Below, in pieces: positions 1,927-54,311 of a stretch of 55,355 nt of DNA. Every line of letters starts with the position of its first letter. The first letter of the stretch is position 1. A program made the translations under genes and the position numbers. The notes under the pieces were generated by a model that was not told the origin of the DNA, ran no database searches, and saw only the letters and a program-made list of their open reading frames with translations. This stretch comes from an uncultured Candidatus Saccharibacteria bacterium (lineage in GTDB: Bacteria; Patescibacteriota; Saccharimonadia; Saccharimonadales; Saccharimonadaceae). The stretch spans positions 1 to 55,355 of the forward strand of contig CAMKRV010000004.1 of assembly GCA_946415265.1 (NCBI GenBank). The letters are read 5' to 3'.

Positions 1927-2585
1927 TGAACAAAAAATACATGGATTTTGTCCCGTCTAAGCCGGTAGAAAAATCGGCTGGTAGAGCCGTGTCAAAAAAA
2001 CCTGTAGAAAAAAGGATTACCGCGAAGCCTGCGAAGAATCCTGCAATGAAAAAGAAGCCGGTGCGCGAAGAAGTGGTTTTGCAGGAAGATGTTCTGATGG
2101 CTGGTGCAGAGACTTTTTCGCTAAAAAAAGAGCCGGTTTATGGCATTGTAGAGGATTACCGGCCGAAATTTGTTAAAACAGAGGTAGCGAAGCGGCCTTT
2201 GTCGCGCGGGCATTTTGCAAGCAGTAAGAGCGAATTGGCGGAAGCTAAAGCTGTGAAGGTGGCTGCGAAAAAGATTGAAAAACCAGTTAGGCCTGTGGAA
2301 AAACCTGTGGAAAAGTCTGAAGTTGCAAAGGCAGCAGCAGATAAAACTAAGATGAAAGTGCCGAAATCGCCATTTATTAATCAAGCAAAGGTGGCAAAAA
2401 GGCCGTTATCTAAAAATATTTACGAACGCACAGTGAAACCGACAGAGGAAGTAGCGACTGGTCCGGTGACGATTATTTCTAAGCCAGAGAAAGAAAACAA
2501 AGTTAGCCTAGTGGTGACGATTATAATAACGATTATTCTAGGGGCGGCGGCTGGAACTGTGGCGTTTTTGTTATTGCCAAAATAA
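1926..2585 (+). CDS. hypothetical Lys/Pro/Val-rich protein with C-terminal transmembrane helix
   Basis: ORF abuts tpiA; repeated KPVEK segments; C-terminal hydrophobic VVTIIITIILGAAAGTVAFLLL. Confidence 0.6.
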   Translation: MNKKYMDFVPSKPVEKSAGRAVSKKPVEKRITAKPAKNPAMKKKPVREEVVLQEDVLMAGAETFSLKKEPVYGIVEDYRPKFVKTEVAKRPLSRGHFASSKSELAEAKAVKVAAKKIEKPVRPVEKPVEKSEVAKAAADKTKMKVPKSPFINQAKVAKRPLSKNIYERTVKPTEEVATGPVTIISKPEKENKVSLVVTIIITIILGAAAGTVAFLLLPK

Positions 2586-2600
2586 TTTACTAGAGGAGTT

Positions 2601-2966
2601 ATGAATAATCCGTTTATTAAATATGTGATGAAAGAAAAAAAAGAGGATATTTTTCATTCTTCGGCGTATGGTAAAGCGCAAAATGGCGAAGCGATAGGTG
2701 CGGCGTCTGCTGAGGGCTTTAATGAGCGACTGAAGATAGATAGGAATCGGCAAATAGTGAAGGGATATAATGATTCGCGCGTGGTAAACGGAGTATATGC
2801 AAATGGTCCGAAGGCGAAAAAATATGTGCCGCCAGAGAAAAAGGGAAAGGAAGGGATTGGTGGGGCTGCAAAGATGGCAAGTACGAAGTCTGCGCCAAAG
2901 CCCATGACAACCGCGCCGGTCAGGAGGCCGTTTGTGCCACCGATAAAACCGAATTTTGGGAGGTAA
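2601..2966 (+). CDS. hypothetical protein
   Basis: ORF with gaggag upstream, co-directional with previous gene. Confidence 0.5.
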   Translation: MNNPFIKYVMKEKKEDIFHSSAYGKAQNGEAIGAASAEGFNERLKIDRNRQIVKGYNDSRVVNGVYANGPKAKKYVPPEKKGKEGIGGAAKMASTKSAPKPMTTAPVRRPFVPPIKPNFGR

Positions 2967-3027
2967 AAAGCCTGAGGGTTTTAATTTTAGTGCGGGTAGA
3001 GAGAATGTCTTCACTCGGCCCCACTCC

Positions 3028-3059
3028 GGATAAAAATAAAATATGAGAGCAAGCTCTCA
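3028..3059 (-). terminator. terminator downstream of tRNA pair
   Basis: TGAGAGC/GCTCTCA hairpin followed on minus strand by TATTTTATTTTT. Confidence 0.6.
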
Positions 3060-3073
3060 ATTTCATTTTTCTC

Positions 3074-3148
3074 TGGTGCGGGTAGAGAGAATCGAACTCT
3101 CATCTCAAGTTTGGAAAACTTGCATACTAACCACTGTACTATACCCGC
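3074..3148 (-). tRNA. tRNA-Gly (TCC), CCA encoded
   Basis: GCGGGTA/TACCCGC acceptor, anticodon arm CAAGT-TTTCCAA-ACTTG, T arm GAGAGTTCGATTCTCTC, 3' ACCA. Confidence 0.92.
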
Positions 3149-3166
3149 ATTTTGCGAACATAAACC

Positions 3167-3244
3167 TGGGGTGGGATATCGGGATCGAACCGACGACCTT
3201 CTGGACCACAATCAGACGCTCTAACCATCTGAGCTAATCCCACC
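3167..3244 (-). tRNA. tRNA-His (GTG), with G-1 opposite C73 and CCA
   Basis: GTGGGAT/ATCCCAC acceptor, loop TTGTGGT (anticodon GTG), extra 5' G opposite C73, encoded CCA. Confidence 0.92.
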
Positions 3245-3345
3245 AGATAGGCCTATGTTGGGTATATTATAGCGGTTATTTATGAAAAAATCAAGGGAGA
3301 GAACGAGCAAATAATGGATTTTTGGAAGTTTTTATGGTTTTTATA

Positions 3346-9992: not shown

Positions 9993-10058
9993 GGTTTGTT
10001 TCCCTCCGAGCCTCGTGAGCCCGCCTTCTCTTGGCGAGACAGTGTTGTAATTTTGATG

Positions 10059-10841
10059 TTATCGAGCGGCTTGGAGTAGGTGATCAAAAAGACAAGTGAT
10101 AGTGAGGGGACCAACACCGCCCACTACTGGAGTGATGGCGGTGAGATCTTTTCTGGTGTATAGTTCGGGGGCGAAGTCGCCTTTTATTACCCCATCTTCG
10201 CTGGCGGTGCCAGCATCTATAAGAGTGGCGCCAGGGGAGATGAAATCACTAGATATCAACCCCGGTACGCCCGTGGCTGATATGATTATATCAAAACTCT
10301 TAAGGTTTGTCAAGTCATCGCCGCGATGGAAGAGGGAAACATTGTAATTTGAAGTTTGAAAGATGCGGTAGAGTGGGGCGCCGACTAGCTTGCCACGGCC
10401 AACGATGGCGATTTTTTTGCTTTCTAATTTAATATCATAGCCAGCTAGAAGCCAAAGGATGGCGGTGGCGGTGGCGGAATCGTACTTGGCGTGTTGGCCT
10501 AGACCATCGACGTCTTTTGTGGGGGCGATGAGGTTGCAGAGTTCGTCGGTTTTTTCTTTTTCTAAGATGGGGAGCTGGAGGATGATGCCACTGACGGTGG
10601 AGTCTTCATTGGCGGACTGAATTTTGGTGGCGATTTCGACGGTGTCTTTGGCAAGGTAATCTTCTACTTCTACGCCGATATCTTCGCCATATTTGATTTT
10701 AAGATTGACATACTTAGTGATGACGGGATTATTGCTATCACGGATAATGAGGAGCTTGGGCTTACTTTCAAGGCTGGCTACCTGGTGAGCTTGACGCTCC
10801 TTAATAAAACTAGCGAGATCTCTACCGTTTAAAGATTTCAT
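10059..10841 (-). CDS. folD: bifunctional methylenetetrahydrofolate dehydrogenase/cyclohydrolase
   Basis: GIILQLPIL, KDVDGL, VGRGKLVGAP, TPVVGGVGPLTITCL motifs. Confidence 0.93.
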   Translation of the reverse strand: MKSLNGRDLASFIKERQAHQVASLESKPKLLIIRDSNNPVITKYVNLKIKYGEDIGVEVEDYLAKDTVEIATKIQSANEDSTVSGIILQLPILEKEKTDELCNLIAPTKDVDGLGQHAKYDSATATAILWLLAGYDIKLESKKIAIVGRGKLVGAPLYRIFQTSNYNVSLFHRGDDLTNLKSFDIIISATGVPGLISSDFISPGATLIDAGTASEDGVIKGDFAPELYTRKDLTAITPVVGGVGPLTITCLFDHLLQAAR

Positions 10842-11881
10842 TAGTTGACTCCTGGGATTTTGATGGGTGGGTTGATGATTTCTACGGGTTCTTGTTCTAG
10901 CCAGTAGCCGTAAGTATCGTAGACTTTGTTCACGATTTCTTCGCGGGCGGCGGCGAGATCTTGGTAAGATTTGGCGGATTCGTTGATGAGAACGAGTGCG
11001 GCTTTGGGGTTGACGCGGAAACCATGGAGAAGTTTATCGGAAAAACCGGCTTTTTCGATAAACCAGCCAGAATTGATTTTGTAGCCGTCTTTGCCGTGGT
11101 AGACTGGATAACCTTTGGCTTCGGCGATTTCGGCTTCTGGTTCTGTGAGATAGATATTTTTAAAGAAGGAGCCGGAGCTGGCTTTCTCTAGTGGATCTGG
11201 GAGTTTATCGGCGCGGATGGCACTGACGATGGCACGAATGCCCTGGGGGCTAAAATCTTTGATATTGTGATCTGAAGCGTATTTTTCGATAGAGCGATAG
11301 AAAGGGGGTTCCATTTGGCCGGAAGTAAGATGTAGGGTGATGGAGATGACAAAGTAGCGATTTTTTTCGGTGGTGTTGAGAATGCTTTTACGGTAAGAAA
11401 AACCGAGATCGTCATGAGAGAGTGTCTTGAAGGTGTGGCTTGCGGTATCGTAGACTTCGATAGATTCTAAAGTATCGGCGATTTCTTGACCGTAAGCACC
11501 GATGTTTTGTACGGGGGCAGCACCGGTGAGACCGGGGATTTTGCTGAGGGCTTCAATACCAGTGAGGCCTTTTTTGCAGGCGTATTCTACGACGTTATCC
11601 CAATATTCGCCGCCCATAATGGTGAGGTTGACGCCATCTGGTGTGGGCGTTTCTGAAATGCCATGCATACGGTTGATGATGATGGCGCCGCTAAAGCCTT
11701 CATCGTGGCCGATGGTGTTGGCGCCGTAGCCGAGTATAAAAGTGGGCATATTATAAGTGGCGGCAAAATCGTAAGCATCAGGGATTTCTTCGGGGCGTTC
11801 AATTTCTAAGACATAGCGAGCTGGGCCGCCCAGGCGCATGGTAGTAAGACTGGAAATTAAGATATTTTCGTTAACGCGCAT
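10841..11881 (-). CDS. murB: UDP-N-acetylenolpyruvoylglucosamine reductase
   Basis: TTMRLGGPARYVLE, GLTGIEALSKIPGLTGAAPVQNIGAYGQEI, SGSFFKN, GWFIEKAGF motifs. Confidence 0.93.
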   Translation of the reverse strand: MRVNENILISSLTTMRLGGPARYVLEIERPEEIPDAYDFAATYNMPTFILGYGANTIGHDEGFSGAIIINRMHGISETPTPDGVNLTIMGGEYWDNVVEYACKKGLTGIEALSKIPGLTGAAPVQNIGAYGQEIADTLESIEVYDTASHTFKTLSHDDLGFSYRKSILNTTEKNRYFVISITLHLTSGQMEPPFYRSIEKYASDHNIKDFSPQGIRAIVSAIRADKLPDPLEKASSGSFFKNIYLTEPEAEIAEAKGYPVYHGKDGYKINSGWFIEKAGFSDKLLHGFRVNPKAALVLINESAKSYQDLAAAREEIVNKVYDTYGYWLEQEPVEIINPPIKIPGVN

Positions 11882-45176: not shown

Positions 45177-46625
45177 ATGTTAAGTTTAAATAAAAAGAAA
45201 AAAGTGGCGTTTTCGGCATTGGCGGTTACGGCTTTGGCCCTGCCGGTGTCGGTATTAGCTGTAAATAAGATTAGTTCATTTGAGAATACCTATGCGGCAA
45301 CTATGCCAGCTAGTTTTAAAGACCAAAATTTTTACGATTGTGTGTTGGCGGAATTTCAGAGCGAGTTTCCGAACGAAACGGTAGCTAGTACTGGGCTGAC
45401 TGATGCGCAGTTGGCAAAGATTAAGACGGTTTGGTGTCCCGGAAATGATAATAGTAAAATTTCTGATGCTACCGGTATAGAAAAAATGACTGCGGTAACG
45501 GGTATTACGCTTAATAAAAATAGCTTGAAGACAATAGATGTTTCAAAAAATGTTAATTTGATTGTCTTGGCTTTGACCGAGAACCAACTAACTTCCCTGG
45601 ATGTGTCGAAAAATCCAGAATTAATGAATCTTAGAGTATATGGTAATTCGTTGACTTCCTTGGATGTGTCACATAATCCTAAACTTGAAGTTCTTTTGGC
45701 ACACAGTAATTCGTTAACTTCTATGGATATTTCGAGTAATTCTGATTTGACTGACCAATTTACCGTTGACGATATTTTGGTGAAGGCTAACATCTCGCCG
45801 ATAATCACTACCGTGTCGCCAAGCTATGACCTGTCTGAGTTGAATATAATCAATTCCACTCAGACTATTAGCAACACAAGTAATTACACGTTTAATAGCA
45901 ATAAGAATACTATTATAGTAAATAATTACAGTAGTGCCGGTGGGGTCATACAAGTCTCTTCGTCGGCTCAAGGCAGGACGTATAAATTACAATTACCAAA
46001 GTTTGTGAAGTTTGATACTAATGGTGGGAGTAATTCTCCATCGGCTGTGAGTTGTTATTCTACTGCGGCGACGGGATCTTGTTCTGTAACTGTTCCATCT
46101 GCGATGCCAACTAGATCAGGATATGATTTTAAAGGTTATGCAGATTCGGCTGATGCTGAAAATGTAATTTATAATGTGGGAGGATCTATAAGTTTGACTG
46201 AGCCAAAAACCGTCTATGCTGTTTGGAATAAGAAAAGTACAAATATAGACGATAATGGTGGCAACAGTGGTGATAGTAATAATGATAACGGTGGGGATGG
46301 AACAGGTGATGTAGATGGTGGGGATACGAATGGTAATGATAATAACAATACCAGTGATGACACGAATGGTGGGGATACAGACGATAGGGATAGCGATACG
46401 AGTGGGACGAGTACGGCCAGCGATGGCAATAGCGGGGAAGAGGATGATACGCCAGTGCCGAGCACTTCGAAGAAAGGTATTACTCCAGACACTGGGGCGA
46501 ATACGAAGACAGAGGAGAACGGCAACCTAGTGGTAACTTATGCTTTACCGATGGTAGTGATAGTGTTAGCTGGAATATTATTCAAGAGAAACAGAAGTAA
46601 GAAATATATAAAGTTTGAACGGTAG
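45177..46625 (+). CDS. LRR/InlB-type surface protein with Asp-Gly-Asn linker and LPxTG-like C-terminal anchor
   Basis: LTSLDVSKNPELMNLRVYGNSLTSLDVSHNPKL repeats; KFDTNGGSNSPS...SGYDFKGYADSADAE; TPDTGA + TM + KRNRSKK. Confidence 0.8.
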   Translation: MLSLNKKKKVAFSALAVTALALPVSVLAVNKISSFENTYAATMPASFKDQNFYDCVLAEFQSEFPNETVASTGLTDAQLAKIKTVWCPGNDNSKISDATGIEKMTAVTGITLNKNSLKTIDVSKNVNLIVLALTENQLTSLDVSKNPELMNLRVYGNSLTSLDVSHNPKLEVLLAHSNSLTSMDISSNSDLTDQFTVDDILVKANISPIITTVSPSYDLSELNIINSTQTISNTSNYTFNSNKNTIIVNNYSSAGGVIQVSSSAQGRTYKLQLPKFVKFDTNGGSNSPSAVSCYSTAATGSCSVTVPSAMPTRSGYDFKGYADSADAENVIYNVGGSISLTEPKTVYAVWNKKSTNIDDNGGNSGDSNNDNGGDGTGDVDGGDTNGNDNNNTSDDTNGGDTDDRDSDTSGTSTASDGNSGEEDDTPVPSTSKKGITPDTGANTKTEENGNLVVTYALPMVVIVLAGILFKRNRSKKYIKFER

Positions 46626-48689: not shown

Positions 48690-49523
48690 ATGAAAAAGAT
48701 AAAAGAACAGGTGGGTAATTATTTAAATTATTGTGAAAAGGTGAGAGGGATGTCGCCGGCTACGATGTGGGCGAAGCGAAATATTTTAAAGAGATTTATA
48801 GAAGTGACGAAAATAAGAAATCTGGAAGAATTAGATAACAGCGTTTTTAATGAGTGGGTAGAAAATGAGAAAAGACGAGGTGTAAGTGCTAGATCTATTA
48901 ATACTTACAATGCGACAATCTGTGCGATGGTGCAATATTATGTTGGCTTAGGTGTGGGTGTGCCGCTAAAAATACCGTTGGTGCAAAAGTTGAAAGAAGG
49001 AGAAACGCGAAGAAGATTTTATACGGCCGCAGAAATAGAGAAAGTATTAGAATATACAGATATAGAAACGGGGCTAATGATAAAAATCATGTTTGAAACT
49101 GGGATGCGAATAGCGGAGCTGACTAGGATGAGGGTGGACGATATAGATGGGCGGAGAATTAAATTTATAGGAAAAGGAAATAAGCCGCGGGAGGTGTATA
49201 TGCGGGAGGATACGCGACGGGAATTGTTTAAATATCTAATGAAGCAGGGTAGGGTTGGTTGTGTTTGGGGAGATGGGGTAAATGGTGATCCGCCAACGGT
49301 AGAAACGGTGCGGAAAAGATTGCGTAGGCCGTTTTATGCGGCGGGGTTTGATGATTTTTATCCGCATGCGCTGAGACATTCTTTCGCGACAGATTTGCAG
49401 ATGAGGGGTGCTAGCGTAGCGGAGATAAAAGAGATGATAGGGCATGAAAATATCGCTACGACCGAGCGATATCTTCATGGGTTTGAGGGGAGGCTAAAGG
49501 AACTGTTTGATAAATATAGATAA
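48690..49523 (+). CDS. tyrosine recombinase (XerC/D-like)
   Basis: FETGMRIAELTRMRVDDI, HALRHSFATDLQMRGASVAEIKEMIGHENIATTERYLH. Confidence 0.88.
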   Translation: MKKIKEQVGNYLNYCEKVRGMSPATMWAKRNILKRFIEVTKIRNLEELDNSVFNEWVENEKRRGVSARSINTYNATICAMVQYYVGLGVGVPLKIPLVQKLKEGETRRRFYTAAEIEKVLEYTDIETGLMIKIMFETGMRIAELTRMRVDDIDGRRIKFIGKGNKPREVYMREDTRRELFKYLMKQGRVGCVWGDGVNGDPPTVETVRKRLRRPFYAAGFDDFYPHALRHSFATDLQMRGASVAEIKEMIGHENIATTERYLHGFEGRLKELFDKYR

Positions 49524-50462
49524 TTAGCTTCTGCTAGCTTTTTGGTTAGCCTTTTTGCGGGCTTTTGCTTTGGCTACGAAGTAGAAAATGAGCGCAAAGA
49601 TAGCGAAGATGATGATGAAGAGGAGCCAGATGGGGCAGACGATAACTAGCTTGGAGACTTGAGTAGTGACGCCTTCGAATTCTACGGTGTAGATGACGTT
49701 GAAAATGCCGACTGCTGGTGTATCTTCCCAAGCTAGTTCATTATAAAGTGTTCTGTCTGGTAAAATGGTCTTCTCGATAGGGACTTCTTCGTTGGTATAA
49801 ACTTCTTCGCCGGAAAACAGTGGAAATATTTGCATGGTGTACTTTGCGGTGCCATGTACGTTACCAGTATTTTTTATAGTAGATGAGCCGGTAATATTGC
49901 CAGATAGAAGGAACGAAGGAACATCTGCGCTGGTGATTTCGCCATGGCGCTCGGTGGTGCCGGCGATTTCGGCACAAATTATGTGTGCTATACTGTATTT
50001 AGCTTGTATATTAATGGATTCTTCGCCAGAATCGTAGTTGTTATTCGAAGTAACTTTAATAGCGGCATACTGCCCACCTGCTGGGGCATTTTCCGGTACG
50101 TCTATGGAAAAGTATAATTCTTCGGTATTGTTTGGCGCGATGGTGCCACTGGTCTTATCTAATTTAATCCAATCTACTATCTGATTATAGTCGTTGTTAT
50201 TCTCATATATTGAATTGTGGTTCTCGTCGACATAATAAGGTGAAACGCTTACGGTATATGCAAAGTTGCCAATATTTGATGCTGGGTTGGTAACTTTAAA
50301 TGAACTACGGTATGTCTCGCCCGCCGATAAGACTATCTTCTGGTTCATTGGCGATATTGAAAACAGTCCATCGGCATGTATGGTTGACGAATTACTAAAG
50401 CTAAGTACTGCCGTCATAAGTCCTGTAAGTATGATCTTGAATAATGTTTTTCTATATTTCAT
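49524..50462 (-). CDS. secreted DUF916/WxL-interacting-like protein with C-terminal TM (module A, gene 3)
   Basis: SISPMNQKIVLSAGETYRSSFKVTNP, NAPAGGQYAAIKV; C-term TM; paralogous to 53340-54311. Confidence 0.65.
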   Translation of the reverse strand: MKYRKTLFKIILTGLMTAVLSFSNSSTIHADGLFSISPMNQKIVLSAGETYRSSFKVTNPASNIGNFAYTVSVSPYYVDENHNSIYENNNDYNQIVDWIKLDKTSGTIAPNNTEELYFSIDVPENAPAGGQYAAIKVTSNNNYDSGEESINIQAKYSIAHIICAEIAGTTERHGEITSADVPSFLLSGNITGSSTIKNTGNVHGTAKYTMQIFPLFSGEEVYTNEEVPIEKTILPDRTLYNELAWEDTPAVGIFNVIYTVEFEGVTTQVSKLVIVCPIWLLFIIIFAIFALIFYFVAKAKARKKANQKASRS

Positions 50463-50483: not shown

Positions 50484-51029
50484 CTATTTTATTTTACAGG
50501 TGAAGTTTTGATTTTTATAATTTCTATGATATTCAGATAATGTTTTGGGCAGAGTAATTTCATCGTATAGTTCAATCATGAAATACTTTGCGGCTATCGG
50601 GGTCAAATCTTTAAAAGTTATATATAGTTCCATGCGTATAGAATCGTTTAATTTTGTGAAATGTACGTTAAATGGATCTGCTCCGAGATTATTCTTTCCG
50701 AAACTGATGCCCATATCGGCGTGATTGTGCGCTTCGCTTGCTTCGATTTGTCCTGGGGTGTCGTAGTATAAGGTGTAGGTTAAGGCTATCGTGTCAAGTT
50801 CGTCTTTGTAAAAATTTGCAGAGATGCGAAGATTCCGTGCTCTGGCATTGTCGTATCCGAAAAATGGATAGATAGTACTTTGATTTTCGCATATTAATGA
50901 CTCACCGATGACGTTTTCGGGATTTTGACCGCTTGTTTTTGTTTCCCCTCGCATTAATATTGTCATTATGATTGCGGCAATTATTATTGCTATTATAATA
51001 ACCGGGGCTAATATTTTCTTGGATTTCAT
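50484..51029 (-). CDS. membrane-anchored protein (module A, gene 2)
   Basis: N-terminal TM; C-term YHRNYKNQNFTCKIK resembles YRNKSFQCEL of 52745-53353. Confidence 0.6.
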   Translation of the reverse strand: MKSKKILAPVIIIAIIIAAIIMTILMRGETKTSGQNPENVIGESLICENQSTIYPFFGYDNARARNLRISANFYKDELDTIALTYTLYYDTPGQIEASEAHNHADMGISFGKNNLGADPFNVHFTKLNDSIRMELYITFKDLTPIAAKYFMIELYDEITLPKTLSEYHRNYKNQNFTCKIK

Positions 51030-51102: not shown

Positions 51103-51804
51103 TTAGCTATCTAGCTGATCAAGGGTATAGGTGACATGGCCAGTGTAAACACCTGCGGCTTGAGTGTTGTCGATACCTACGCCATAGGTAACTGTATAGT
51201 AATCCCCGGCATTAGTGGTAGTCTTTGGAGCGGTTGTTGCGCTACCGGCAATGATTCCGTTAGCATTTGCGGAAGTGGCCCATGATCCATGACTGTTTTT
51301 TACTTCGCCACGATTACCGCTAGCAGCTTCTACCATGTAGGACCAACCAGAGGTTGTACTGCTAATAGTGCCTGCGATATCAATTGTATCCGTTGTCGTG
51401 GTAGAAGTTAGATTCGCTGCGCCGCTTGTGGTGATCGTGTAGCCTTTTTCATTGTTGCAGAACACCCCTAGAGTTGTAGTGCCAAGGTTTGTCGTGCTGG
51501 TGCCGTTAGACATAGTCTTGCTTAAGGTGTCAGAGGCAGCAGCCGTGCCGGTGACGGTAGCTTCGTATGAAGTTTCTCCTGAAGGCATACCTTCCCAAGA
51601 GCCATCGCCATTAGCGCGAACTACACCGGCAACATCAATTGCTGGACTAGGGGTTGCATCTTCGTGGCCAAGTGAGCAGACCTTTTCGATTGTAATCTCT
51701 AAATTGTCGGTCGTCGAGGTTACATCTGTCGCGAATGCGCCGACTACTGGCATGGCTGCTAAAGCTACTGCGGAAGCGCTAGCTGCAATTAATGATTTTT
51801 TCAT
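51103..51804 (-). CDS. secreted surface protein (module A, gene 1)
   Basis: Signal MKKSLIAASASAVALAAMPVVGAFA; C-term GVYTGHVTYTLDQL; paralogous to 52071-52673. Confidence 0.7.
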   Translation of the reverse strand: MKKSLIAASASAVALAAMPVVGAFATDVTSTTDNLEITIEKVCSLGHEDATPSPAIDVAGVVRANGDGSWEGMPSGETSYEATVTGTAAASDTLSKTMSNGTSTTNLGTTTLGVFCNNEKGYTITTSGAANLTSTTTTDTIDIAGTISSTTSGWSYMVEAASGNRGEVKNSHGSWATSANANGIIAGSATTAPKTTTNAGDYYTVTYGVGIDNTQAAGVYTGHVTYTLDQLDS

Positions 51805-51820: not shown

Positions 51821-51846
51821 ATTAATTATATTTGTGTCAATATATG
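51821..51846. repeat. left arm of inverted repeat between divergent modules
   Basis: tatatttgtgtcaatatatg (51827-51846) perfectly inverted at 52017-52036. Confidence 0.85.
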
Positions 51847-51971
51847 CTTGTCTAAATCGTGATTTTGTATTGCTTGAAACGATTACATTTTTTGTTGAGA
51901 AAATTAAAACAACAGGGATAATCTTGTGGAAAAGTCAATATGGCTAAGCTTAAAAAATATTTAAAATTTTC

Positions 51972-52000
51972 TTGACAACATAATCACGCTTATGTAAAAT
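51972..52000 (+). promoter_or_regulatory. promoter of module B
   Basis: TTGACA - 17 nt - TAAAAT. Confidence 0.7.
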
Positions 52001-52016
52001 AAGAAGTGTTAAAGGT

Positions 52017-52043
52017 CATATATTGACACAAATATAAATTAAT
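52017..52043. repeat. right arm of inverted repeat between divergent modules
   Basis: catatattgacacaaatata, reverse complement of 51827-51846. Confidence 0.85.
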
Positions 52044-52070
52044 TCTGCTTAGCAGAAGGAGAAAAATAAT

Positions 52071-52673
52071 ATGAAAAAATTAGCAATCGCAGGTGCTTCA
52101 CTCGCTCTCGCAGCTATGCCAGTAGTGGGCGTATTCGCAGCTGATGGTAACACTACGACGACTGATACTGTTCAGGTCACGATTGATACAGCTTGCTCTT
52201 TGACAGCGACTGGTGCTGGGACTTATAGCACTACTTTGACTAACGGTACTGCTAGCAGTGATCTTGGTTCTACTTCTATCAATATCAAGTGTAATGATGC
52301 TGGTGGTTGGATGGTAAATGCTATTGGCGCGAACACATCTACAACCGCAGGTGCTGGCGCTACCGACATGGCTCCAGATGCGGCTGGCAAGACCCCGATT
52401 GCTACTGGTACAAGTCTTGATGGCTCCGTATCTAACTGGGCGATGAAGCTTACCGCTAGCGAAGGTGCTTATGCGCCAACCATCGTAACTGGCTATGATC
52501 AGTATCATGCTGTTCCTGGCGCAGCTGATACTAAGGTAGTCTCTGGCGTCACTACTGACCAAACAACTGGTTCTACCTTTACCACCAATTACAAGGTAGC
52601 TGTAAGTCCTACTCAGCAACAAGGTACTTACACTGGTAAGGTAACCTACACGCTTGTTCACCCAAATGCTTAA
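52071..52673 (+). CDS. secreted surface protein (module B, gene 1)
   Basis: Signal MKKLAIAGASLALAAMPVVGVFA; GTYTGKVTYTLV C-terminus. Confidence 0.7.
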   Translation: MKKLAIAGASLALAAMPVVGVFAADGNTTTTDTVQVTIDTACSLTATGAGTYSTTLTNGTASSDLGSTSINIKCNDAGGWMVNAIGANTSTTAGAGATDMAPDAAGKTPIATGTSLDGSVSNWAMKLTASEGAYAPTIVTGYDQYHAVPGAADTKVVSGVTTDQTTGSTFTTNYKVAVSPTQQQGTYTGKVTYTLVHPNA

Positions 52674-52691
52674 TTTGAGTTAAAGCGTTTT

Positions 52692-52723
52692 ACAAGATGC
52701 AGCTCTCGGTGGGCTGCATCTTG
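52692..52723 (+). terminator. intercistronic hairpin/attenuator of module B
   Basis: 12-bp stem acaagatgcagc/gctgcatcttgt between genes 1 and 2. Confidence 0.6.
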
Positions 52724-52744
52724 TGTATATAAAATTAAGGAGTT

Positions 52745-53353
52745 ATGATGGCTGAAGATAATAAACCGAAAAAACGTAAAAAAATCTTGATTGGAATTAC
52801 GATAGTTGCAGCAGTTGTAGCTATCATATCTGTCATCGCTTATTTCTTAACCAATAAACAAGAAACCTATATTTCTACAAATAGCGATAAGGTCAGGATG
52901 GAGACAGTTTATTGTGTAACTAGTAATTCGAAGGATGCTTTCTTTGCTCCTACTGCCTCATTAAGTGATACGCATACAATAAAAATGGTTTTTAGGGATG
53001 GGTCTTTTTATAGAGCATCGTATTCTTATGAAGGGAGTTTTCAGAATAATCAATCCGCAGTGAATGCTAATGATACTATGCATGCAGATTATAACAAGTA
53101 TATGGCAAGTTATGGCATAAATGCCGAGAAATTATACCCCACCTTTGTAGTGAGGGATACAAAAGAAAGTATTAACTTATACGTAGAGTATCAAGATTTT
53201 TCTGCTGCAATAGCTAAGATTTTCTTTATCGGTGCGGATGAATATTCGAATTTCCATGATATAAACCCAGAAAAAGTTGAACAAATATACAGGAATAAAA
53301 GTTTTCAATGTGAGCTAAATAATGAAGGAGAAAAAGAAAATGAAAAGGAATAA
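52745..53353 (+). CDS. membrane-anchored protein (module B, gene 2)
   Basis: N-terminal TM; paralogous to 50484-51029. Confidence 0.6.
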   Translation: MMAEDNKPKKRKKILIGITIVAAVVAIISVIAYFLTNKQETYISTNSDKVRMETVYCVTSNSKDAFFAPTASLSDTHTIKMVFRDGSFYRASYSYEGSFQNNQSAVNANDTMHADYNKYMASYGINAEKLYPTFVVRDTKESINLYVEYQDFSAAIAKIFFIGADEYSNFHDINPEKVEQIYRNKSFQCELNNEGEKENEKE

Positions 53354-54311
53354 ACGCAAATCGATTTTAATTGCTTTGATAGCGTTATTTGTATGTGGTT
53401 TGAATGTATTAAATGTTTTTGCGGATGGTAAGAATGGAGAAAGTACCATGACTATTTCGCCCATGACACAAAAAATAATTTTGATGCCTGGAGAGACTAA
53501 GGAGGTAGTAATAAAAGTTTCTAACCCTTATCTAGCAAAACAAAATTTGGAATACTCGGTAAGTGTGGGCTCATTTAGTCAGTCGGCTGGAGAAGATAGT
53601 AGAGATGATTATGATTCTGTGGATACCGGAACAAAGACTGAGTATAACCAAATTATGGATTGGATTACTTTAGGAAAAGATTCTGGCACTGTTGCTCCCA
53701 ATGAGGTAGATTTAATTTCTTTCACCATAAATGTACCGAATGATGCGCCTGCGGGTGGTCAGTATGCGACAATTTTAGTAACCGATGAAACGGATTATAT
53801 GGGCGATAGCGATGGAGATGTTTCTATTGAGAGCAAGATGCAAATAGGCTCAATTATTTATGCGGAAGTAACTGGAGCGACACGCGAAGAGGGGAAAATT
53901 CTTGAAAATAATATCCCTTCGTTTTTATTAAATAACCAATTAGAAGCAACTTCTATGGTTCGAAATGATGGCAATGTACACACCGATGCATCATATATAT
54001 TGCAAGTATGGCCAATGATCGGAGATGAGGAAATTTGTACAAACGAGGAAGAGCCAGATTTAAGTTTGATTTTGCCAGAAACTGAGCGTTTTCATGCACA
54101 AACCTGTAATCTTCCTATTGCCGGTATATTTCGCGTCAAGCAAACTGTGAAAATTTTCGGCGAGGAATCTGTTGTGGAAAAAATGGTGATTGTGTGTCCG
54201 ATCTGGTTGATATTTATAATATTGTTTATAATATTTGCCTTGATATTCTACTTTGTAGCAAAAGCGAAAGCTAGAAAAAAGGTGGCGAAAAAGGCTGAAA
54301 AGACCGTTTAA
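53340..54311 (+). CDS. secreted DUF916/WxL-interacting-like protein with C-terminal TM (module B, gene 3)
   Basis: TISPMTQKIILMPGETKEVVIKVSNP, DAPAGGQYATILV, VCPIWLIFIILFIIFALIFYFVAKAKARKK matching module A gene 3. Confidence 0.65.
   Translation: MKRNKRKSILIALIALFVCGLNVLNVFADGKNGESTMTISPMTQKIILMPGETKEVVIKVSNPYLAKQNLEYSVSVGSFSQSAGEDSRDDYDSVDTGTKTEYNQIMDWITLGKDSGTVAPNEVDLISFTINVPNDAPAGGQYATILVTDETDYMGDSDGDVSIESKMQIGSIIYAEVTGATREEGKILENNIPSFLLNNQLEATSMVRNDGNVHTDASYILQVWPMIGDEEICTNEEEPDLSLILPETERFHAQTCNLPIAGIFRVKQTVKIFGEESVVEKMVIVCPIWLIFIILFIIFALIFYFVAKAKARKKVAKKAEKTV

Follow-up and report, generated by a model that had tools for sequence, protein, structure and literature searches.

A putative promoter-inversion switch between two paralogous surface operons, linked to a dedicated tyrosine recombinase, in Candidatus Saccharibacteria

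In Escherichia coli, fimS is a short invertible promoter segment bounded by inverted repeats and adjoined by the genes of the tyrosine recombinases FimB and FimE, and its product is of pilus type. At the Campylobacter fetus sapA locus a single promoter lies between opposed surface-protein genes with conserved 5' sequence, and a 6-kb element is inverted by homologous recombination over long repeats. The Vpma system of Mycoplasma agalactiae has one promoter for several surface-protein genes, sites in the 5' UTRs and an adjacent tyrosine recombinase, Xer1; disruption of the recombinase locks expression (PMC2268961). According to the same paper, inversion also controls surface products in Mycoplasma penetrans mpl and at the Bacteroides invertible promoters (PMC2268961).

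We analysed a 55,355-nt stretch of DNA from an uncultured Candidatus Saccharibacteria bacterium (the window), which is an entire contig of a 772-kb draft genome and continues unbroken across the locus described here. A first-pass annotation, made from the sequence alone, had pointed to 20-bp perfect inverted repeats about 170 bp apart, between two divergent operons that we call modules A and B. The repeats were found to be real, though 21 bp long (51826-51846 and 52017-52037), and the spacer between them measured 170 nt. The chance expectation of such a pair is about 2e-5 (any pair in 10.4 kb). The left arm (minus strand) is the candidate recombination site toward module A and the right arm (plus strand) that toward module B. 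Their core variant, GACACAAATATAA, is identical on both arms (51826-51838 on the minus strand and 52025-52037 on the plus strand). Both arms lie directly upstream of the gene 1 ribosome-binding site of their own module, at a short distance from it, and are thus 5' leader sequence. With their surroundings the two arms show 72% homology over 147 nt, which is unusually short and the most diverged among all pairs that we compared. The segment between them (51847-52016), judging from relatives, would be the part that inverts. A reading of the arm as a regulator operator was rejected, since the exact 16-bp motif occurs in this genome only at the two arms and no regulon is therefore indicated. An Rfam search of the region gave no match up to E 0.1, and a comparison of the site pattern with viral contigs gave none either.

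The good rightward promoter claimed by the annotation, TTGACA-17-TAAAAT (51972-52000, plus strand), is present with 11/12 matches and here faces module B, which we call ON. To the left only a weak match had been reported; the homologous promoter is indeed absent on that side, but a possible weak promoter, TAGACA-18-TATAAT (51825-51854, minus strand), also has 11/12 matches and overlaps the left arm, with its -10 element inside it. This element could allow some transcription of module A, so that its OFF state may not be absolute. A leader hairpin, GTGTTAA-loop-TTGACAC (52006-52029, plus strand), has its 5' half in the segment and its 3' half in the right arm; the homologous hairpin was found in 22 leaders, with two pairs changed on both sides. 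A smaller hairpin, TTCTGC-TTA-GCAGAA (52043-52057, plus strand), was seen by eye directly 5' of the ribosome-binding site. Its pairing is kept in relatives with differing stems (CTGC/GCAG, CCAC/GTGG, CCGT/ACGG), suggesting a role in the mRNA. RNAalifold did not predict this hairpin before the ribosome-binding site, perhaps because loop lengths differ.

Modules A (51804 down to 49524, minus strand) and B (52071 to 54311, plus strand) were confirmed to be what the annotation had described as matching three-gene surface modules: they are paralogous gene by gene. Module B encodes a secreted pilin-like beta-sandwich protein (gene 1, 52071-52673), a membrane-anchored extracellular protein (gene 2, 52748-53353) and a WxLIP-like membrane-anchored surface protein (gene 3, 53340-54311). 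Module A, OFF here, has its three reading frames intact: the paralogous secreted protein (gene 1, 51103-51804), gene 2 (50484-51029) and a WxLIP-like gene 3 (49524-50462). The gene 1 product is secreted and has two conserved cysteines. Its predicted model is a beta-sandwich (mean pLDDT 83) whose top PDB matches, at a weak E of ~0.007, are Fim and Csu pilins; assignment to the 'CPR Pam pilus' pilin domain was rejected, the NCBIfam match (E 0.02-0.04) being far below cut-off. For gene 3 the model predicts beta domains and a C-terminal membrane helix. This protein scored 18.4 bits against the WxLIP Pfam model, below the cut-off of 27.3, and its best fold match was WxLIP of Enterococcus faecium (Foldseek E 2.8e-11, with a TM-score of only 0.37-0.46); fimbrial chaperones were also among its fold matches. 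Going by these models, each module appears to encode a surface protein that is secreted and perhaps polymerises, together with partners anchored in the membrane. Upstream of the switch (45177-46625) a further surface protein is encoded; it has leucine-rich repeats and a Listeria-Bacteroides repeat, with a membrane segment at its C-terminus.

Immediately beyond module A, where the annotation had placed it, lies the gene of a tyrosine recombinase (TYR; 48690-49523, plus strand), the presumed dedicated invertase. Its stop codon abuts that of module A gene 3, and its frame ends one base before the end of that gene. A Pfam Phage_integrase domain (2.9e-28) and an intact R-K-H-R-H-Y set (R140, K162, H226, R229, H252, Y261) assign the protein to the tyrosine recombinase superfamily. 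It scored 33 bits against the NCBIfam FimB/FimE-type tyrosine-invertase models (cut-offs 221-222) and 130, 124.5 and 103 bits against XerA, XerC and XerD (cut-offs 220, 335 and 330); being far below these cut-offs, it is not classed with tyrosine-type DNA invertases or with XerA, XerC or XerD. We searched for homologues in all 174 genomes of the genus. Module-linked homologues, 49-77% identical, were present in about 20 genomes, and in a tree the 22 module-linked TYRs formed one clade (100/100 support) against 20 unlinked recombinases from the genus and a near relative. Among the 174 genomes this clade was found solely beside modules of the present surface family. The catalytic residues are invariant in all module-linked copies, with the exception that the gene in genome G180, by recombinase the nearest relative of the window, has two in-frame stops. 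In four genomes (G152, G111, G007 and G095) the TYR gene itself lies inside the segment between the sites.

We consider it highly probable, on the strength of the sequence comparisons set out below, that this locus family is a site-specific promoter-inversion (phase-variation) switch. TYR would act on inverted sites that lie in the 5' leaders of the two divergent operons, one site per leader, and cut within the core, with the crossover probably in AACACA/GACACA, so that 51847-52016 and parts of the arms flip. Facing right, the promoter would drive module B, by way of a leader hairpin to which segment and arm contribute half each; facing left after inversion, it would drive module A. Because the segment holds the only full promoter, one operon would be expressed at a time, and the promoterless operon would be silent, giving either/or expression of the two pilin-like/WxLIP-like modules.

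Relatives were found by using gene 3 and the intergenic DNA as queries, and whole loci were then retrieved. Their genomes are catalogued under Candidatus Saccharibacteria, and the ruminant gut is the source of most. The neighbourhood of the locus (genes at 43-48.6 kb of the window) is conserved in the genus, and the layout of the modules varies from one module to a tandem array or divergent modules. The regions upstream of gene 1 were aligned by a core that they conserve, AACACAAA(A)TATAA. In ON copies the promoter is followed by TGTTAAAGGTTATACATTTAACACAAAATATAAATTAATTCTGC, a hairpin, the ribosome-binding site and ATG, and the ON copies of relatives have the promoter motif of the window at an equal distance from the core. 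Divergent pairs consist of one full ON copy and another copy that is homologous only from about the core, preceded by unrelated, promoterless DNA. The homology between the two starts 0-11 nt upstream of the core and in most pairs ends ~110-150 nt downstream; at most loci the copies are 88-100% identical over these 110-150 nt, from the core into the signal-peptide region. OFF copies, defined by a perfect or near-perfect core without a promoter, were present in 17/17 assessable genomes with TYR and in 0/17 genomes without it, which have single or tandem modules (Fisher P 9e-10, a value that overstates independence since the genomes are related). In the TYR-bearing genomes every ON copy had a best sigma-70-like score of 11-12/12 in the 90 nt upstream of the core, against 6-10 for OFF copies. 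Loci with TYR have an almost invariant core, which is degenerate in most loci without TYR.

A scan for the core and leader pattern found 47 sites in 24 of the 174 genomes, and a reversed control pattern found none in the same set. At least two sites were present in 16 genomes, 15 of which have the module-linked recombinase, so that recombinase and sites are tied by genomic association. In the exception, G103, one contig is nearly identical to the G111 locus, and another has its terminal 141 nt in common with a contig of G035. Three loci (G105, G136 and G101) have three site-bearing gene 1 copies, exactly one of them ON in each case. The window's core variant was kept in G080, which has one module and no recombinase.

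Other arrangements were also seen in the genus. Tandem arrays of 3-6 gene 1 paralogues without a recombinase occur at L075 (G025), L083 (G083:C3), L084 (G071), L085 (G075) and L099 (G005), and at least some of their copies have their own promoter and leader. At L156 (G136; 10030-11187) and L161 (G095; 2316-3323) the segment bounded by the sites contains a longer gene 1-like frame, whose upstream sequence is different. Loci L113 (G083:C20) and L164 (G111:C20; 9655 onward) have equal OFF flank and leader (140 nt, 100%) and a 99% identical right flank, and differ in the module, which suggests cassette replacement between close strains. We set this pair aside as proof of inversion, as it may reflect cassette replacement or assembly.

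Both orientations were found across orthologous loci. Those of G072 and G018 have a common order of neighbourhood genes, recombinase, left-facing module and right-facing module; the right (distal) modules are 73% identical in gene 3 and 70% in gene 1, and gene 3 of the left modules is 50% identical. In G072 the promoter points to the left module and in G018 to the right one, which makes the distal module OFF in the former and ON in the latter. Likewise, the promoter faces the recombinase-proximal module in G180 and the distal one in the window. A scan of GTDB r220 for a within-species pair returned mostly the same assemblies and no strain pair.

Assembly breakpoints also indicated both orientations, in G128 and G035. 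A contig end is found within 200 bp of ten of the 47 sites, where 0.7 would be expected. The final default k of MEGAHIT is 141. Many of these genomes are MEGAHIT assemblies (PMC8199421), and the ends of G035:C10 and G103:C5 overlap by exactly 141 nt, in agreement with that value. In G128, from sheep jejunum, contig C5 starts exactly at CATATTTTAACACAAATATAAA and runs into one gene; the first 141 nt of contig C7 consist of 119 nt of promoter DNA and the 22-nt repeat of C5, after which another gene follows. Assembly at k = 141 is interrupted by a 22-nt repeat only where the promoter leads into two genes and the gene is reached from two flanks, and both junctions must therefore be in the sample. 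The limits of this inferred repeat are equal to those of the 21-bp repeat in the window. In G035, from goat duodenum, one base, the end of a shared 78-nt repeat, is where both the promoter flank and the OFF flank that follows the recombinase stop. Repeats alone would not suffice for these breakpoints, which, read indirectly from an assembly graph, are as expected if the two orientations coexist in two populations; strain mixtures could be part of the cause, and a mixture would still require both junctions. Two other cases were discarded: G083 C29/C22, considered as a same-sample ON/OFF pair of one gene, share an end of unexpected length (139 nt) and C22 is unbroken there, and the contig end in G148 does not match the expectation for k = 141.

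The decayed locus of G180 bears on whether the switch still works in the window organism. Besides the two stops in TYR, the OFF module of G180 has a stop in gene 2 and a broken gene 3; genes 1 and 3 of its ON module are intact, and gene 2 was not found. In this one case the decay is what would be expected if an OFF module were useful only with a working switch. The switch may be real in the genus and yet have become locked in the window organism, where module B would stay on for good. The unbroken contig and the most diverged arms of all pairs would fit such a state, and relatives have locked (G180, and probably G080, with one module and no recombinase). We nevertheless regard locking as unlikely, given that the window TYR is intact with all its catalytic residues, that the three frames of module A are open and that the unusual core GACACAAATATAA is the same on both arms. 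On this sequence evidence the window organism itself probably still flips.

The annotation had also offered a simpler alternative, in which an inverted duplication left the repeats behind as homologous 5' leader or operator sequences. On that view nothing would invert, and module A would be silent or driven by a promoter of its own. Part of this held, as the arms do lie in a homologous leader. That leader precedes gene 1 whether the modules are single, tandem or divergent; it forms a homologous hairpin, and the arm is itself internally dyad-symmetric. Duplication leaves unexplained why divergent pairs have a promoter on one side only, why promoterless copies are restricted to recombinase-bearing genomes, why the core decays without a recombinase, why the promoter is oppositely oriented at orthologous loci and why contigs break at exact points; we judge it very improbable. 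The annotation's main proposal, an invertible promoter between divergent modules, is in turn supported by the co-occurrence of TYR and OFF copies, the conserved core, the opposite orthologous orientations and the breakpoints. Similarly improbable is an inversion driven by homologous (RecA) recombination over the 110-150 bp leader and signal-peptide repeats, with TYR doing something else: the 88-100% identity of ON and OFF copies over 110-150 nt at most loci does suggest exchange or conversion, but the window pair has only 21 perfect bp in common, the TYR clade is locus-specific and co-occurs strictly with OFF copies, the homology always ends, on its upstream side, at or near the core, and in G180 the OFF module and the recombinase were lost together.

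Another switch class, distinct from the first, was observed in the genus, at L105 (G024:C9; 5103-6398) and L183 (G067:C3; 8630-10011). Here a tyrosine recombinase lies between inverted repeats that consist of the 5' ends of two divergent surface genes (MSKMSKAIAVLGVVAGLG... in G024). The repeat is 149 nt long at 100% identity in G024 and 156 nt at 87% in G067. The G024 recombinase falls in a different clade from the module-linked TYRs, and that of G067 is broken. Of the two copies in G024, one carries a full promoter; in the other, homology begins only at the -10 region.

The genomes of Saccharibacteria are tiny, and to our knowledge every member in culture lives on other bacteria. A dedicated apparatus for varying surface modules, kept by selection, would mean that surface change matters to this lifestyle. 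We put at about even the chance that a lineage-specific TYR family runs either/or surface-adhesion modules in Saccharibacteria, switching host attachment or phage evasion, under a scheme that evolved at least twice with separate recombinase clades. Keyword searches of an open-access library returned no such switch in Saccharibacteria or the wider Patescibacteria. Promoter inversion is a known mechanism, and we found no earlier report of it as a switch in this phylum of ultra-small parasitic bacteria. The orientation of the switch would offer a precise and cheap test of how Saccharibacteria vary attachment or escape phages.

Compared by analogy, Vpma/Xer1, together with Vsp of M. bovis and Vsa/HvsR of M. 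pulmonis, is the closest worked-out system. The sequence layout has the same 5' UTR sites, single promoter and recombinase beside the locus, and Vpma-like locking upon loss of the recombinase is suggested here by G180 alone. Unlike Vpma, the present loci usually have two (up to three) modules, with a segment of 0.2-2.6 kb that would be flipped between divergent modules; the products belong to pilin-like/WxLIP-like operons and not to lipoproteins, the core and TYR clade are their own, and the bearer is a Saccharibacterium. For mpl and Bacteroides, each promoter serves one gene or locus, and one Bacteroides recombinase acts globally on several loci, whereas here one local, locus-specific TYR would serve one locus in an either/or manner. 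The likeness to sapA lies in a single promoter between opposed surface-protein genes with common 5' sequence, and the difference in the short repeats and the dedicated site-specific recombinase next to them. As in fimS, a short promoter segment between inverted repeats lies beside genes for a tyrosine recombinase and a putative pilus-type surface product; fimS turns one operon on and off, whereas here the promoter would alternate between two.
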